Shown one piece after another: positions 11,932 through 64,000 of a DNA stretch of 64,000 nucleotides. The notes below the pieces were generated by a model that had not been told where the DNA came from, did not search any database, and worked only from the letters and a program-made list of their open reading frames with translations. The position numbers and the translations under genes were made by a program. The stretch is taken from assembly GCF_000384255.1 (NCBI RefSeq), contig NZ_KB913035.1, forward strand, positions 843,362-907,361, given 5' to 3'. Each line of letters begins with the position of its first letter. Position 1 is the first letter of the stretch. The stretch comes from Methylotenera mobilis 13 (GTDB taxonomy: Bacteria > Pseudomonadota > Gammaproteobacteria > Burkholderiales > Methylophilaceae).

Positions 11932-12540
11932 TTAAGCCGCTGGAGTTTCAGCTGCTGCATCAGCAACGCTACCGCGTGTTTTAGCGATAGAAGCAACTGC
12001 TGCGTCATCACCGTGCGCCAATTGTACAAATTCAACACCTTTTGGTAGTTTGATTTGTGACAAGTGGATTGAGTGACCAATTTCCAATGATGCAACGTCA
12101 ACTTCGATAAACTCTGGCAAGTCTTTTGCCAAGCAGCTTACGTCAGCTTCTGTTAGTACGTGAGCAACAATACCACCACCTAATTTAACTCCAGGCGCGA
12201 CATCAGCGTTGATGAAGTGGAATGGCACTTTAACGTGGATTTTTTCAGTTGCGCTAACGCGTTGAAAGTCAACGTGTTGAATAGTGTTACGCACTGGGTG
12301 CATTTGGAAGTCGCGTAATAATACGCTTTCTTTTTTACCATCAAGAATCAGCGTTAATACTGAAGCGTGGAAAGCTTCGTGACGGAATTGTAAGAACAAT
12401 TCTTTAGCGTTGATTTCTAGCGGGAATGCTTCTTTACCACCACCATATACTACACCAGGCACAGAGCCAGCATGACGTAGGCGGCGGCTCGCACCCGTAC
12501 CTTTAGCGTCACGTTTTACTGCATTGATTTCAATAGCCAT
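11932..12540 (-). CDS. rplY: Ribosomal protein bL25, long (CTC/TL5) form
   Basis: 5S rRNA-binding protein of the large subunit. It is 202 residues, the long form with a C-terminal TL5-type domain, ending in an Ala-rich tail. The N-terminus contains RDAKGTGASRRLRHAGSVPGVVYGG and the core MHPVRNTIQHVDFQRV. It sits 73 bases downstream of prs and is probably co-transcribed with it. Confidence 0.96.
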   Translation of the reverse strand: MAIEINAVKRDAKGTGASRRLRHAGSVPGVVYGGGKEAFPLEINAKELFLQFRHEAFHASVLTLILDGKKESVLLRDFQMHPVRNTIQHVDFQRVSATEKIHVKVPFHFINADVAPGVKLGGGIVAHVLTEADVSCLAKDLPEFIEVDVASLEIGHSIHLSQIKLPKGVEFVQLAHGDDAAVASIAKTRGSVADAAAETPAA

Positions 12541-56368: not shown

Positions 56369-56827
56369 ATGATTATTTTGAATATCAATGGTAAAGAAGA
56401 GAAGCTAGACGTGTCTGATGATATGCCGATATTGTGGGCATTAAGAGATGTCATGCATTTGACTGGTACCAAGTTTGGTTGTGGCATGGCGCAATGTGGT
56501 GCCTGTACGGTTCATTTAGATGGGGAGCCGATTCGTTCGTGTATTACGCCTATCGCTGCTGCAGTTGGTAAAAAAATTACCACGATTGAAGATATTCAAA
56601 ATGATAAAGTTGGCCAAGCGGTGCAAGCAGCCTGGAGTGAAGTGGATGTGGTGCAGTGTGGATACTGTCAATCTGGCCAAATTATGGCCGCGACAGCTTT
56701 GTTGACTAACAACCAAACACCAACTGATGCCGATATTGATGCAGCCATGAGCGGAAATATCTGCCGTTGTGGAACTTATCCGCGTATCCGTGCAGCGATC
56801 CACGCTGCGGCAACTAAATTAGCTTAA
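56369..56827 (+). CDS. 2Fe-2S subunit of an IorA-type molybdenum hydroxylase
   Basis: A 152-residue small subunit that carries electrons from the molybdenum centre. The plant-type cluster is KFGCGMAQCGACTVHLDG with SC downstream (about residue 61), and the second cluster is QCGYCQSGQIM and GNICRCGTYPRI. An RGG-type site (GAGGG) precedes the ATG. It is followed by the large subunit after 10 bases. There is no FAD subunit, as in the isoquinoline oxidoreductase group. Confidence 0.93.
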   Translation: MIILNINGKEEKLDVSDDMPILWALRDVMHLTGTKFGCGMAQCGACTVHLDGEPIRSCITPIAAAVGKKITTIEDIQNDKVGQAVQAAWSEVDVVQCGYCQSGQIMAATALLTNNQTPTDADIDAAMSGNICRCGTYPRIRAAIHAAATKLA

Positions 56828-56837
56828 GGAGATATTC

Positions 56838-59015
56838 ATGACTGCACCTTTAAATATCTCTAGACGTACTTTTATTAAAGCCTCAGCGCTAGTCGTTGGT
56901 GGTCTTGTGATCGCGTTTTCAATTCCGCAAGCTAAACGCTTTTTACTGCCTGGCGCAGCGAAAGAAACTGGCAATGCGGGTGAGGCAAAGCTCCCAGCAC
57001 CAAATGCCTTTTTACGGATTGGTACCGACAATACAATTACTGTGATGCTTGCCCATAGCGAGATGGGGCAAAGCATTTGGACAACATTGCCTATGTTGAT
57101 TGCAGAGGAGTTGGATGCCGATTGGAGCAAGATTAGAGTAGAACATGCTTCTGCATCCCCTGCATATCTTCATACTGCTTACGGCATTCAAATCACGGGT
57201 GGATCTTCTACCACTTGGTCTGAGTTTGACCGCTATCGTCAAGCTGGCGCGCTGACGCGACAGTTATTAATTGGTGCGGCTGCTGAGCAATTAGGTGTTC
57301 CTGCTGCTAATCTTAAAACAGAAAATGGTTTTGTCATTAGCGGCGACACGAAAATTAGCTATGGCGATCTCGCTGAAGCTGCAGCCAAGTTAGAAACGCC
57401 GAAAGCCGTTACGCTAAAAGACCCTAAAGATTGGAAAGTGATCGGCAAGGCGACTAAACGTCTGGATGGCCCGGAAAAAATTAATGGCACTGCGGTATTT
57501 GGGCAGGATGTTCATTTCGATGGCTTGATGACTGCCATGGTGGCGCGTTCACCAGTATTTGGTGGCTCAGTAAAGTCTTTTGATGCAAGTGCTACCAAGC
57601 AAGTCAAAGGTGTTCAGCAGGTGGTGCAAGTGCCTACGGGTATTGCGGTGGTGGCTGATAATTATTGGGCAGCAAAACAAGGCCGTGAAGCACTGAAGGT
57701 CGAATGGGATTTAGGTCCCAACGCAGGCCTTGATTCAAAAGCGATGCTTGAGGACTTTAGAAGCAAAGCGGCTAATCCTGGCTTGGTCGCAGCACAATTG
57801 GGTGATAGCAAAGCTACGTTATCTAAATCTGATAAGTTAATCGAAGCTGAATACGCATTGCCATATTTAGCACATTCACCGATGGAGCCGCTCAACTGTT
57901 CAGTCCGTATTGAGAAAGATGCTTGTGAAATTTGGACAGGCACGCAAATGCAAACAACAGACCTGCAAGCTGCGGCAAAAATATTAGGACTTAAGCCTGA
58001 GCAAGTCAAAATTCATACGCTTTTCTTAGGTGGTGGTTTTGGGCGGCGTGCAAATCCAGCGGCTGACTTTGTGTCAGAGGCGGTGCAAGTGGCTAAAGCG
58101 GCAGGTGTGCCAGTGAAAACAGTGTGGAGTCGTGAGGATGATGTGCAGGGTGGTTATTATCGCCCGATGTATTTGCACAAGGCTAAAATCGGTGTGGATA
58201 CCAATGGTTTTCCAGCAGCTTGGGAGCAAGTGACGGTAGGTCAGTCAATTATGTTAGGGACACCATTTGAAGCTTTTATGATTAAAGATGGCGTTGATGC
58301 TACCTCAGTAGAGGGCATTGCAGATTCACCGTATTTGAAGCAAATTCCTCACTATCATGTGAGTTTACATACCGTGAAAACTGGTATTCCTGTGCTTTGG
58401 TGGCGTTCAGTTGGTCATAGCCACTCTGCATTTGTGATGGAAAGTTTGATTGATGAGCTTGCACATAGTGCGAAAAAAGACCCATTAGATTACCGTCGTG
58501 CGCTTTTGAAAGATCACCCACGTCATTTATCTGCACTTAATTTAGCCGCTGAGAAAGCCGAGTGGGGCAAGACATTGCCTAAAGGGGTTTCAAGAGGAAT
58601 TGCCGTGCATGAGTCTTTTGGCAGTTTCGTTGCGCAGGTCGCGGAAGTCTCTGTTGATCAAGGCGCAGTGAAAGTGCATCGTATGGTGTGTGCTATTGAT
58701 TGCGGTCTTGCAGTAAATCCTGACTCTCTAAAAGCACAAATGGAATCTTCGATTTCTTTTGGCTTAGGAGCTGCCATGCAAAGTGAAATTACCTTTAAAG
58801 AAGGTAAGGTTCAGCAATCTAACTTTCATGACTATCTCGTGATGCGCATGAGCGATATGCCCAAGGTTGAAGTACACATCGTGCAAAGCACTGAAAAAAT
58901 GGGTGGCGTTGGTGAGCCTGGCTTGCCGCCTGTTGCCCCTGCGGTGACGAATGCAATTTTTGCGGCTACAGGCAAACGCATCCGTCAATTGCCGATTGGC
59001 AATCAGCTGGCTTAA
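56838..59015 (+). CDS. Molybdopterin-binding subunit of an IorB-type hydroxylase/aldehyde dehydrogenase
   Basis: A 725-residue large subunit. The N-terminus [20 protein letters not shown] is a twin-arginine signal with a membrane segment, so the folded enzyme is exported. It has [17 protein letters not shown], the Moco motifs [14 protein letters not shown] and [16 protein letters not shown], and the catalytic Glu in [10 protein letters not shown]. Related enzymes oxidise isoquinoline, nicotinate or aldehydes with cytochrome c or quinone as acceptor. The substrate is unknown. It may serve aldehyde oxidation in this methylotroph. Confidence 0.9.
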
Positions 59016-59019
59016 TCCC

Positions 59020-59997
59020 TTGAAATCAGCAGACTTAGAAGTATTAGACAGAGCGCTTGATTGGCTGAATGACGGATATCAGGCGCATTTGTTTACCGTA
59101 GTAAAGACGTGGGGCTCTGCGCCACGTTTACCTGGTGCGGTGCTGGTGGTGCGAGAAGATGGGCATTTGATCGGCTCAGTTTCTGGTGGTTGTATTGAAG
59201 ATGATTTAGCAGATAAAGCGCGCAATCGAACGTTGCCCACGCAACCTACAATCATGGAGTATGGCGTTAGTCGTGAAGATGCACAGCGCTTTAGAATCCC
59301 ATGCGGCGGGCAATTACAGATATTTGTAGAGCCATTGAATGGCGTAGCTCAGTTGGAACCGATTATTCAGAACCTACGTCATCGTAAACTGACCAAACGC
59401 TCTGTAAACATTAGCACAGGGGAAATTAAGCTTACGGAAGTATTGCCTGAAGGAGCGCCGAGAATAGAGGACGATTGGTTTCATACCTACTTTGGTCCGC
59501 AATGGCGCTTATTGATTATCGGCGCTAATCAACTTGGCGCTACGCTAGCAAGTATGGCGCAAGCATTAGATTTTGATGTGTTGGTATGTGAGCCACGCCA
59601 AGAAATTCGCGATGAGTGGCATGTAGAAGGCGCGACTTGGGTATACGGAATGCCTGATGATGTGGTGCTCGATATTGCCCCAGATGCACATACGGCGATA
59701 GTGGCGGTGACGCATGATCCTAAGCTAGATGACATGGCGTTGCTTGAAGCATTAAAGTCTGATGCATTTTATGTAGGCGCACTTGGTTCACACAAAAATC
59801 AGGAAAAGCGCCGTGAACGTCTACGTATGTTTGATTTGAGTGAATCAGAAATTGCGACCATGCGCGGCCCAGTGGGGTTACGCATCGGTAGCCGTACACC
59901 AGCCGAAATTGCTGTTGCCATTCTTGCTGAGTTGATTCAAGTGCGGGCGCAACAGACGACGATTGGTTTGGTAAACCAAGTAAGTTGCGCAGCTTAG
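59020..59997 (+). CDS. xdhC: XdhC-family molybdenum hydroxylase maturation factor
   Basis: Inserts or sulfurates the molybdenum cofactor in xanthine dehydrogenase-type enzymes. It has an N-terminal XdhC/CoxI domain (KTWGSAPRLPGAVLVVREDGHLIGSVSGGCIEDDLADK), then a Rossmann domain ending AHKNQEKRRERL-like GALGSHKNQEKRRERLRMF and GLRIGSRTPAEIAVAILAELI. The likely start is TTG 59020, five bases after the large subunit stop; an ATG at 58951 would overlap that gene by 65 bases. It matures the hydroxylase above it. Its stop overlaps that of the convergent mocA-like gene. Confidence 0.88.
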   Translation: MKSADLEVLDRALDWLNDGYQAHLFTVVKTWGSAPRLPGAVLVVREDGHLIGSVSGGCIEDDLADKARNRTLPTQPTIMEYGVSREDAQRFRIPCGGQLQIFVEPLNGVAQLEPIIQNLRHRKLTKRSVNISTGEIKLTEVLPEGAPRIEDDWFHTYFGPQWRLLIIGANQLGATLASMAQALDFDVLVCEPRQEIRDEWHVEGATWVYGMPDDVVLDIAPDAHTAIVAVTHDPKLDDMALLEALKSDAFYVGALGSHKNQEKRRERLRMFDLSESEIATMRGPVGLRIGSRTPAEIAVAILAELIQVRAQQTTIGLVNQVSCAA

Positions 59998-60593
59998 CGT
60001 TTTAAATCTGCGGGTATATCAATGTCCGCTAAAATTCCCGCATCCTTGCATGGCAGCATATAAACTGCATCTGGATATCGTTTGATAATAGCGCGCGCCC
60101 CTTCATCACCATGTAGATTTTCTAGTTCGCTACGATATTTGGCAGCAAAGCCAACAGGGTGGCCACGTTGGCCCTCATAGGTAGGGATGACAATCGAATG
60201 ATTAGCATGATTTGATAGCTGCTCAGCAACGGCGCTAATCGTAGCAGGTTTAATATATGGCATATCTGCCAGAGCAATCACAAAACCGTCTTTTGCGGCT
60301 TCAAACTTAGATGAGAAACGAATGGCCATCGCTAGGCTATCTGCCATGTCTTGCTTATTCTCTTCACATGCCACAATGTTAAAGCCGATACTGAGTAATA
60401 ATTCAGCAAGCTGAGCATTTTCTGCGCGCACCACTGCAATGCTAGTTGGCATTGCCTCAATCAGATTCTGAGCAGAGGCCACTGCGATTGGACGACCATC
60501 TGGCAAAGCTTGTAATAGCTTGTCAGACGACCCGAATCGACGTGAAAATCCAGCCGCTAGTAATATGCCTATCATTGATATCATCCTTTTCAT
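59994..60593 (-). CDS. mocA: MocA-like molybdenum cofactor cytidylyltransferase
   Basis: A 199-residue NTP-transferase-like protein. ILLAAGFSRRFGSSDKLLQALPDGRPI is the nucleotide-binding loop, and ALADMPYIKPATI and RGHPVGF are family motifs. In the MocA group it joins CMP to molybdopterin to make the MCD cofactor used by XdhABC/IorAB-type enzymes. That fits its place beside xdhC and the hydroxylase. It runs against them, overlapping their last 4 bases. The start could be the second or third Met. Confidence 0.88.
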   Translation of the reverse strand: MKRMISMIGILLAAGFSRRFGSSDKLLQALPDGRPIAVASAQNLIEAMPTSIAVVRAENAQLAELLLSIGFNIVACEENKQDMADSLAMAIRFSSKFEAAKDGFVIALADMPYIKPATISAVAEQLSNHANHSIVIPTYEGQRGHPVGFAAKYRSELENLHGDEGARAIIKRYPDAVYMLPCKDAGILADIDIPADLKR

Positions 60594-61084: not shown

Positions 61085-63025
61085 TTAGCTAAGCCCCATC
61101 GTTTTTAGTTTGCGATAAAGCGTGTTGCGGCTGATGCCAAGCTTGCGTGCTACCGCGGAAATATTGCCAGACTCAGCCTGCATGGCAAGTTGTATTGTGT
61201 GACTTGTTACGTCACCTAAATCTAACGATTTCGAAGGTGAGTCATTGATGTTTGCCAGAAGCGGCGTGGATATCTCATCAATAAAATCTTGAGTCAGGTG
61301 CAGTGTGCTAATAGGCAACCCATCTGCTAATGCTAATGCCGTACGCAGGACATTATGTAACTGACGGATATTGCCTGGCCATGAATGTGCTTTGAATATC
61401 TCCATGACTTCAGGGGTGATTTCTATGTTGCCAGCTTGCTCGATATGTAAAATAACATCAATCAATGCGAGTAAGTCAGAACGATCTCGTAAGGGTGGCA
61501 GTGCTACGCTCAAGCCATTAAGTCGGTAATAAAGATCGCTACGGAACGCGCCACATTCTACTTTCTCTTTTAGTTTTAAATTGGTAGCACTAATCAGCGA
61601 AAAGTTAACAGGAATCGTTCTTGTGCTGCCTAAAGGAGTAACGGTACGCTCTTGGAGCACCCTCAGTAACCTTGCTTGTAACGAGAGTGGCATATCGCCA
61701 ATTTCATCCAAAAATAAAGTACCACCGTTCGCTTGCTCAATTTTGCCAGGGCTACCTTTACGCCGCGCACCCGTAAAAGCACCTTCTTCATAGCCAAACA
61801 ATTCCGCTTCAATTAAGCCTTCTGGTAATGCTGCACAATTCACGGCAATCCATGGGCCTTTGTGCTGTGCGCTCGCTTCATGAATCGCACGTGCAAATAA
61901 CTCTTTACCAACCCCCGTTTCGCCCTGAATCAAAATAGGGATGTCTCGAGACAGCACTTGTTTTATTTGTTGTATAGCACGTGAAATTTTAGCGTCACCA
62001 CTGTCAAGCAAGTCCAAATTGGCCGCACTGGTTCTTTTGACGATAGCGGGAGGTGAGGTGCTAATCCGTTGTTTTTTATGCAGCAGCTCTACTTGTACAT
62101 AGATACGTGCACCATTATTTAACCTTAATGGAACGATTAACTTATCCGCACTCCCTGTCTGTCTTAATAGGCTTGTGAATGGAATATCAAACAATTGGTC
62201 AAAATTAATTGGCGGATAAGCGCGCGCGTTGTTCGCATTAGAGGCGCCTGTATTTAAGCTGAGTTGGAATTGGCCGCTTCTATTGATTGCTACCAGTTGA
62301 CCGCCTGCTGTAAAAATGGCGACACCTTCCCATAATGTGCCGATAAACTCTGGGCGAGCATGAAAATGTAGTACCACATCTCCTTGATGGCTTGCTAAAA
62401 ACAGTCGATTCTCAATCATCTGCGCAGACATTTTTATCAGCGCTAAGGTATGTTGTTGAGATGTATTGGAATCGTTAGAGACATCCAATGTGGCAATCAG
62501 TTGATTCTCAGCGCCAAAAATGGGGACGGCAGAACAGCTTAATGAGTGATGGTATGCCATAAAGTGCTCTGCACCCTGTACTGTGAGCGCTGATTGTTCA
62601 ATCAGTACCGTACCAATCGCATTTGTGCCTCTATGGTCCTCATGCCAAGATGCGCCAGCAGATAAAGCAACGCGTTGGTCTTCATTCATAAAATGATGCC
62701 CGCCAAGGCTATGCAGAATTACGCCTTCATCGTCCGTTAATATCACCACGTTACGCGTATGTGCGATTTGCTCGTTGAGCGTTTCCATCTCAGGTTGTGC
62801 AAGTTTAAGCAGTTGCTGATTTTGCTCACGTTTTAGTGCAAGCTCTTGCGCGGTAACAACTTCCAAACTTGGAGGTGAGTTTGTGTCGATACCATTTGCC
62901 AGACAACGCCTCCATGAGCGCTCAATCGCTTCAGCAATCGCCCCTTGTTCTACATTGCCATTGCTCAAAAACTCTTTTCTGGCTTGCAGTATGGTTGGGG
63001 TTTTATCTGTTGTGGCATTGCTCAT
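61085..63025 (-). CDS. AcoR-type sigma-54-dependent transcriptional activator
   Basis: A 646-residue enhancer-binding protein. A GAF-type sensor (about residues 60-220) and a PAS-like region come first. The sigma-54 AAA+ domain runs from about residue 345, with Walker A IQGETGVGKELFARAIHE, the sigma-54 loop FGYEEGAFTGARRKG and Walker B GGTLFLDEIGDMP. A Fis-type HTH (AVARKLGISRNTLYRKLK) ends the protein. Related proteins activate acetoin and alcohol oxidation genes. It is divergent from xoxF, whose upstream region has a sigma-54 promoter and matching repeats, so xoxF is the likely target. Confidence 0.94.
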   Translation of the reverse strand: MSNATTDKTPTILQARKEFLSNGNVEQGAIAEAIERSWRRCLANGIDTNSPPSLEVVTAQELALKREQNQQLLKLAQPEMETLNEQIAHTRNVVILTDDEGVILHSLGGHHFMNEDQRVALSAGASWHEDHRGTNAIGTVLIEQSALTVQGAEHFMAYHHSLSCSAVPIFGAENQLIATLDVSNDSNTSQQHTLALIKMSAQMIENRLFLASHQGDVVLHFHARPEFIGTLWEGVAIFTAGGQLVAINRSGQFQLSLNTGASNANNARAYPPINFDQLFDIPFTSLLRQTGSADKLIVPLRLNNGARIYVQVELLHKKQRISTSPPAIVKRTSAANLDLLDSGDAKISRAIQQIKQVLSRDIPILIQGETGVGKELFARAIHEASAQHKGPWIAVNCAALPEGLIEAELFGYEEGAFTGARRKGSPGKIEQANGGTLFLDEIGDMPLSLQARLLRVLQERTVTPLGSTRTIPVNFSLISATNLKLKEKVECGAFRSDLYYRLNGLSVALPPLRDRSDLLALIDVILHIEQAGNIEITPEVMEIFKAHSWPGNIRQLHNVLRTALALADGLPISTLHLTQDFIDEISTPLLANINDSPSKSLDLGDVTSHTIQLAMQAESGNISAVARKLGISRNTLYRKLKTMGLS

Positions 63026-63049: not shown

Positions 63050-63081
63050 ATTGAACACCTGTCACGTGACAGATGTTCAAT
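63050..63081. promoter_or_regulatory. 32-bp inverted repeat, candidate enhancer of xoxF
   Basis: Symmetric outer arms ATTGAACA/TGTTCAAT surround the inner palindrome CTGTCACGTGACAG; only one base pair is mismatched (63058 with 63073). It lies 25 bases upstream of the activator gene and about 160 bases before the sigma-54 promoter at 63210, a normal enhancer distance. Confidence 0.8.
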
Positions 63082-63082
63082 T

Positions 63083-63098
63083 TTGACACAGTGTTCAA
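63083..63098. promoter_or_regulatory. Second enhancer-type repeat
   Basis: TTGACACAGTGTTCAA; its right half GTGTTCAA is the complement of the half-site TTGAACAC in the large repeat just before it. The two centres are 25 bases apart, so the two sites are almost on one helix face sequence. Confidence 0.6.
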
Positions 63099-63209
63099 AG
63101 TTAAATGCATTCAGCATGGAAGCAATATCTATTTCCATGAGATTTTTAGTTTATTGATTTTAAATAATTTTTTTATGAAAATTTATTTAAATAGTGGCTT
63201 TTTATTGTG

Positions 63210-63226
63210 TTGGCATGCCCATTGCA
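63210..63226 (+). promoter_or_regulatory. Sigma-54 promoter of xoxF
   Basis: TTGGCATG-CCCA-TTGCA places GG (63212-63213) and GC (63224-63225) exactly 10 bases apart, the -24/-12 rule. The consensus is TTGGCACG-N4-TTGCA, with one difference. Transcription would start near 63237, giving a leader of about 75 bases to the ATG at 63312. Confidence 0.9.
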
Positions 63227-63311
63227 ATATTAGCACTGTTACCAATGTCGTTTCAATGCATGAAATTAGTAATACGTAACTTAAATAATTTTTATAATTT
63301 GGGGATGCAAA

Positions 63312-64000
63312 ATGAATCATCAATTTAAACGTAGACTTGGCTTGAGCATCGCTTTAAGCGCTGGTCTATTTGGCATGTTAAGCACACCAGCTTTTGCTGC
63401 AGATGAATTATCAACACTCATGAATGATGATAATCAGTGGGCACATCCACGTAAGGATTTTAGCAATACTGGTTATAGCCGTCTAAGCCAAATCAATAAA
63501 GGCAATGTGAAAAACATGAAACTTGCCTGGTCATTTGCAACAGGTGTTAATCGTGGTCATGAAGGTGCGCCATTGGTGATCAATGGTGTGATGTATATCC
63601 ATACCGCGTTTCCTAACAACATCTACGCACTAGATTTAAATAATAATCAAAAAATTCTTTGGTCTTATTTTCCTAAACAAGATCCATCAGTACAGGCTTT
63701 ACTCTGTTGCGATAACGTAAACCGTGGCTTGGGTTACGGAGATGGCAAGATTTTCTTGCAACAAAATGATGGTCTTTTAGTCGCGTTAGATGCTAAAACT
63801 GGTAAAAAAATATGGGATACGCAAGTTACCAATACTAAAGAAGGCGCATCAAATACCAATGCACCACATGTGATTAAAGACAAAGTGATTACAGGCTGTT
63901 CAGGTGGCGAGTATGGGGTGCGTTGTTATATCACGGCATATAACATTAAAGACGGTGCTTTGGTATGGCGTGCATACAGCACAGGCTCTGACCAAGATGT
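63312..64000 (+). CDS. xoxF: XoxF-type lanthanide-dependent methanol dehydrogenase (3' end outside)
   Basis: A PQQ-dependent periplasmic alcohol dehydrogenase that oxidises methanol to formaldehyde or formate with a lanthanide in the active site. Only the first 229 codons are in the window. A signal peptide of about 28 residues (ending AFAA) is followed by a pyrrolo-quinoline beta-propeller (YSRLSQINKGNVKNMKLAWSFATG). LLCCDNVNRG has the adjacent Cys pair that forms the vicinal disulfide over PQQ, as in MxaF and XoxF. The lanthanide-specific Asp lies beyond the edge, so XoxF against MxaF rests on overall likeness. GGGGA precedes the ATG at 63312. Confidence 0.92.
   Translation, partial: MNHQFKRRLGLSIALSAGLFGMLSTPAFAADELSTLMNDDNQWAHPRKDFSNTGYSRLSQINKGNVKNMKLAWSFATGVNRGHEGAPLVINGVMYIHTAFPNNIYALDLNNNQKILWSYFPKQDPSVQALLCCDNVNRGLGYGDGKIFLQQNDGLLVALDAKTGKKIWDTQVTNTKEGASNTNAPHVIKDKVITGCSGGEYGVRCYITAYNIKDGALVWRAYSTGSDQD

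Follow-up and report, generated by a model that had tools for sequence, protein, structure and literature searches.

A predicted sigma-54 circuit marks one xoxF paralogue across the Methylophilaceae

Does one copy of xoxF among several in a genome have a switch of its own? The question is raised by one end of a 64-kb stretch of Methylotenera mobilis 13 (contig NZ_KB913035.1, positions 843,362 to 907,361; hereafter the window), where the start of an xoxF gene and the gene of a putative sigma-54 activator lie side by side on opposite strands. The xoxF copies of one genome show no single response pattern (PMC5723320; this and the other papers named are cited from extracts), and in the literature searched we found no regulator named for the differing responses of the copies in Methylophilaceae. 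On the evidence set out below, it is very probable that one xoxF paralogue, which fits the XoxF4-2 type, is governed by a sigma-54 circuit dedicated to it. For one of the several xoxF copies in this family, a predicted promoter can now be named together with its putative activator and the block to which the latter may bind, and the circuit offers a testable explanation for why these copies differ in their activation.

An earlier note on this sequence had placed a sigma-54 promoter of the -24/-12 kind before xoxF, and its description of the site stands. Read from the window sequence, the element TTGGCATGCCCATTGCA occupies 63210-63226 on the + strand, with GG at 63212-63213 and GC at 63224-63225; their spacing of 10 bases, within the consensus YTGGCAYRNNNNTTGCW, is that of a sigma-54 promoter. 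The 86 bases (63226-63311) that separate C63225 from the xoxF ATG at 63312 agree with the distance given in that note, and taking C63225 as -12 returns the same predicted +1, at 63237, and with it a predicted transcript leader of 75 nt (63237-63311, + strand). Taken alone, the element is moderately improbable by chance: when the 286-bp intergenic region was shuffled at first order, 166 of 20,000 shuffles contained its core, TGGCA-N6-TTGC, on either strand. The same core is found 6 times in the window versus 1.32 expected, a number that 0 of 100 shuffles reached, and TGGCAYGNNNNTTGCW is found 5 times in the 2.8-Mb genome versus once for the reversed-pattern control. With the genes identified by eye, four of these five genomic sites precede genes (xoxF; a pilin gene; a porin-like gene with a PII-like gene after it; a gene adjoining another activator) and the remaining one lies inside leuA. 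A gene with an RpoN DNA-binding domain is present in the genome. As a separate observation, two sigma-54-like cores overlap on opposite strands at 12115-12131 of the window.

What carries the case is the joint conservation of site and activator. We searched 150 genomes of the family for the activator (threshold E<=1e-100, up to 8 candidates per genome scored) and detected it in at least 48 of them, at no fewer than 55 places, 50 of which were examined with their flanks (the five left out were the second G062 copy, G099, G105, G026 and the G071 fragment). Thirty-nine of the 50 activators adjoin xoxF, at loci spanning 37 genomes and 7 genera (L006, L101-L129, L131-L133, L135, L136 and L146-L149), and TGGCA-N6-TTGC stands upstream of xoxF at every one of these. 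The base counts of the 39 sites (T, G, G, C and A 39 each; C 26/T 13; A 21/G 18; four variable positions; T, T, G and C 39 each) are those of the textbook sigma-54 consensus, YR included. When 65 pyrroloquinoline quinone (PQQ) dehydrogenase loci were scanned for the strict core within 450 bp, it was present at 17/17 activator-adjacent loci and at 0/48 others, one of which (L178) has a loose core match at 428 bp. These 48 control loci comprised 4 from the own genome, 30 from activator-lacking genomes (30 of 32 matches used, with 20 genomes chosen and 19 giving a match) and 14 more copies from genomes that do have the activator (drawn from 30 of the 54 matches given by 16 genomes). The earlier note had proposed searching the upstream regions of Methylophilaceae xoxF genes for the pattern, and the outcome bears it out: because the core is found in 39/39 activator-adjacent xoxF loci versus 0/48 other PQQ-dehydrogenase loci, we judge from these sequence comparisons that the sigma-54 site before xoxF is real.

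That note had also described an activator gene divergent from xoxF and adjoining it, and profile and sequence searches identify both genes. The activator, a protein of 646 aa encoded at 61085-63025 on the - strand, has Walker motifs and a GAFTGA at residue 415, and contains a GAF domain (residues 72-208, 62402-62812; PF01590, E 8.4e-13), a sigma-54 interaction AAA+ domain (residues 344-507, 61505-61996; PF00158, E 1.5e-66) and a Fis-type helix-turn-helix (residues 611-641, 61103-61195; PF02954, E 5.5e-11), all on the - strand. The AAA+ domain, Walker A, GAFTGA-type loop and Fis helix-turn-helix together place it among the bacterial enhancer-binding proteins, and Walker A and GAFTGA or GAYTGA are present in 35/35 activators of class 1. 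A second activator class, also xoxF-linked and about 50% identical, is found at L131, L132, L133, L135 and L136, where a cytochrome-like gene lies on the activator's far side and GGGAA/TTCCC-like dyads lie upstream of xoxF. No receiver domain is among the activator's Pfam matches, a GAF domain being present instead, and identity as an NtrC-type response regulator was rejected on this ground. The best NCBIfam match, DhaR, was rejected as an equivalog at 311.7 bits, below the curated cut-off of 551; AcoR may be another likeness.

The xoxF gene (63312-64000, + strand) extends beyond the window, the full gene of 628 aa being at L015:6674-8560. Among solved structures its product comes closest to XoxF enzymes, matching XoxF 6oc5 at 2.4e-214. 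XoxF proteins carry an extra Asp two residues past the catalytic Asp (WDYD, not WDYA or WDFA), and by this rule the product, with WDYDG versus WDFAG in the MxaF-type gene of its own genome, is a XoxF. A distant PQQ dehydrogenase of the same genome (L019), 41% identical to XoxF, likewise has WDYDG. Downstream of xoxF is a 108-aa cytochrome c-like gene (L015:8584-8910, recognized by eye). In a 74-row tree made by a quick method, the XoxFs linked to class-1 activators form one clade (support 95) and those linked to class 2 another (100), and no xoxF from activator-lacking genomes falls inside either; identity separates linked from unlinked copies less well than the tree does, some unlinked copies reaching 77-78%. 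The predicted circuit is the mark of one xoxF paralogue across 7 genera, the other xoxF copies examined being without the site. A further xoxF clade from four same-genus genomes (L196, L197, L198 and L202) has neither activator nor sigma-54 site.

Methylophilaceae XoxF4 splits into XoxF4-1, which every genome studied carries, and XoxF4-2 (Mmol_1770), which many do (PMC6028718). We infer that the activator-linked clade fits XoxF4-2, the Mmol_1770 type, from its traits: it is a clade apart from the widespread copy, and a small cytochrome gene adjoins xoxF. The XoxF4-2 type is marked by about 70% identity to XoxF4-1; the xoxF product is 68% identical to the second copy of its own genome over the first 229 aa and 74% over a longer alignment. 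Genome G078, in which nothing matched mxaF at E<=1e-60, has two xoxF genes, one in the order cytochrome-xoxF-activator and the other in a cluster resembling the Mmol_2048-type description (PMC4109929). Under in situ conditions, Mmol_1770 is up 4-6 fold in M. mobilis and the Methylovorus homologue 100 fold (PMC3728764).

Where the activator might act is suggested by a conserved block, ATGTTCAATTTTGACACAGT (63073-63092), which is likely the activator site, that is, a candidate upstream activating sequence (UAS). Its pattern,.[TC]G[CT]-N8-G-N2-ACA, is located 98-140 bp before -24 in 37/39 regions (it is absent at L114 and L118), these being the same sequences from which it was derived, and occurs in about 5% of shuffles. 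A near-perfect dyad read from the sequence, TTGAACACCTGTCACGTGACAGATGTTCAA (63051-63080), overlaps the candidate UAS, and its TGTCAC-centred part is present in same-genus loci. A block model of 15 rows, to which four of the eight genomes searched had supplied rows, found the xoxF-activator locus at E<1e-6 in 8/8 genomes, and the next match, leaving out hits to that very position on the complementary strand, came at 0.185 among the 150 candidates scored out of 341-823 per genome. Each of these genomes has by this computation a single strong predicted activator site, and the circuit likely has a single target locus per genome. Between block and element lies TTGATTTTAA (63154-63163), found in 19/39 regions, confined to two genera, at a distance of 46-69 bp before the element; that it is an IHF-like bend site is a guess.

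These limits on the block, namely the circular derivation of its pattern, the rows taken from genomes then searched and the restricted set of candidates, weigh against a dedicated circuit, as do an activator orthologue (L145, in G062) that lies near neither xoxF nor an aldehyde dehydrogenase (ALDH) gene and is without the core site, and two reports on expression: the M. versatilis homologue of Mmol_1770 stays very low (PMC3728764), and XoxF4-2 is described as weakly expressed and falling in communities (PMC6028718, citing Krause 2017). A second activator match in G062 is listed with the same score as L145.

If the dedicated circuit operates as we propose, RNA polymerase with RpoN would occupy 63210-63226 as a closed complex, and the GAF/AAA+/Fis activator would bind at about 63051-63092, where the conserved TGT...ACA block lies, DNA looping bringing it to the polymerase. 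On receipt of a signal by the GAF domain, the activator would open the promoter by ATP hydrolysis, and xoxF would be transcribed, probably with the downstream small cytochrome gene. The closed complex, the looping and the opening by the AAA+ domain are proposed because the activator family works in this manner; the signal is the weakest step.

For the nature of this signal, the descent of the activator gives a first guess. Of the 50 activators examined, ten have an ALDH gene nearby: in nine cases it is adjacent and divergent, and in one (L137) it is 2.4 kb off. In a tree of 64 activators made by a quick method (18 of the 35 in class 1, 5 of class 2, 10 ALDH-linked and 31 others), 22 xoxF-linked activators and the unlinked L145 form one clade (99), the ALDH-linked L130 is sister to it (99), and the other ALDH-linked activators of the family stand next outside L130 (94), with long branches elsewhere. 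The strict core precedes the ALDH gene at L130 and is missing at the other nine ALDH-linked loci, some of which have looser GG-N10-GC matches in a scan that itself required GG and GC. The GAF region contains GTNAIGT in 50/50 activators, xoxF-linked and ALDH-linked alike, and the longer RGTNAIGT in 40/40 of classes 1 and 2 versus 1/10 of the ALDH-linked ones. The tree thus has the xoxF-linked activators branch from ALDH-linked ones, and an alcohol or an aldehyde would be the likelier signal. Adjoining the activator at 56369-60593 are genes resembling a two-subunit molybdenum aldehyde oxidoreductase, together with maturation genes, one XdhC-like and one MocA-like; both of these and the gene of the large subunit again adjoin the activator in G078 (L230). 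These aldehyde-oxidising neighbours could be relevant to the activator's signal.

A bolder form of the proposal, which we put forward tentatively and at rather less than an even chance, is that a family-wide circuit derived from ALDH-linked activators separates an inducible XoxF4-2 from XoxF4-1, its GAF activator responding to methanol or formaldehyde without regard to the lanthanide switch; it would explain the in situ induction of the Mmol_1770 type where this occurs. Alternatively, the circuit might be real and the activator sense lanthanide availability, which would make it a sigma-54 version of the lanthanide switch. The WDYDG motif and the best solved relatives of the target mark it as a lanthanide-type enzyme, and the activator has no known ligand; however, its GAF region keeps GTNAIGT like the ALDH-linked relatives and shows, by eye, no conserved acidic cluster, and the other xoxF copies, lanthanide-type too, are without the sigma-54 site, which makes this unlikely. 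Less probable still is a real circuit that reports nitrogen status. The strict sigma-54 site before the porin-like and PII-like genes would suit it, but an activator without a receiver domain is not NtrC, and it groups with ALDH-linked activators. The link to nitrogen or energy status that the earlier note had raised is unsupported for these two reasons, and the GAF domain with GTNAIGT likewise speaks against it. It is scarcely credible that the -24/-12 match arose by chance and xoxF is transcribed solely by way of a sigma-70 promoter that lanthanide-switch regulators control: at 63260-63289 the + strand has a sigma-70-like site with a score of 9/12, and the core also recurs in the window, within genes too, but such sigma-70-like sites are at chance level (2 in the region versus 1.7 expected) and chance leaves the distribution of the core among loci unexplained.

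The architecture of the dedicated sigma-54 circuit is a known one, and xoxF is apparently a new target: in the open-access literature searched for xoxF with sigma-54, none of the extracts describes this sigma factor as controlling xoxF. BmoR/Pbmo of Thauera butanivorans similarly combines a sigma-54 promoter with a one-component alcohol-sensing activator, a near-palindromic upstream site (the BmoR UAS is 193 bp before -24/-12) and looping, whereas its target is an alkane monooxygenase and the inducers known for it are linear alcohols of C4-C6 and branched ones of C3-C5 (PMC8899819; PMC6366067). In methanotrophs, MmoR and the mmoX promoter likewise pair an activator with a sigma-54 promoter for a C1 oxidation enzyme, in that case soluble methane monooxygenase; MmoR is related to GAF-containing activators, and loss of rpoN abolishes mmoX expression in M. 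trichosporium (PMC5874634). The exaA gene of Azospirillum brasilense Sp7 is a sigma-54-dependent gene for a PQQ-dependent quinoprotein alcohol dehydrogenase (cited in PMC6115532), but it has a LuxR-type regulator and glycerol induction, and its enzyme is not XoxF (PMC6115532). MxcQE/MxbDM, MxaY and PedS2/PedR2 also act on genes for PQQ dehydrogenases of methanol or ethanol, as kinase/response-regulator systems (PMC6115532), in contrast to the one-component sigma-54 activator predicted here with its cognate promoter, so that the earlier note was right to see a control logic unlike that of the two-component systems it named. In domain layout, the activator resembles the DhaR/AcoR-like activators beside ALDH genes, as exemplified by the 10 examined family relatives near an ALDH gene.

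Some minor observations remain. No Rfam family comes close to its threshold on the leader: the sole match, IsrM, was rejected at 13.2 bits versus a gathering score of 376. At L111 (G145), an activator with one in-frame stop adjoins a split xoxF match, reflecting either decay or an assembly error. From the activator's 80 named relatives, 48 (L021-L068) were searched for XoxF: matches of 28-37% were found at L022, L024, L027, L051, L052 and L058, and only L066 (Nevskia) has a XoxF of over 50% identity, which lies 2.7 kb away with the same orientation.
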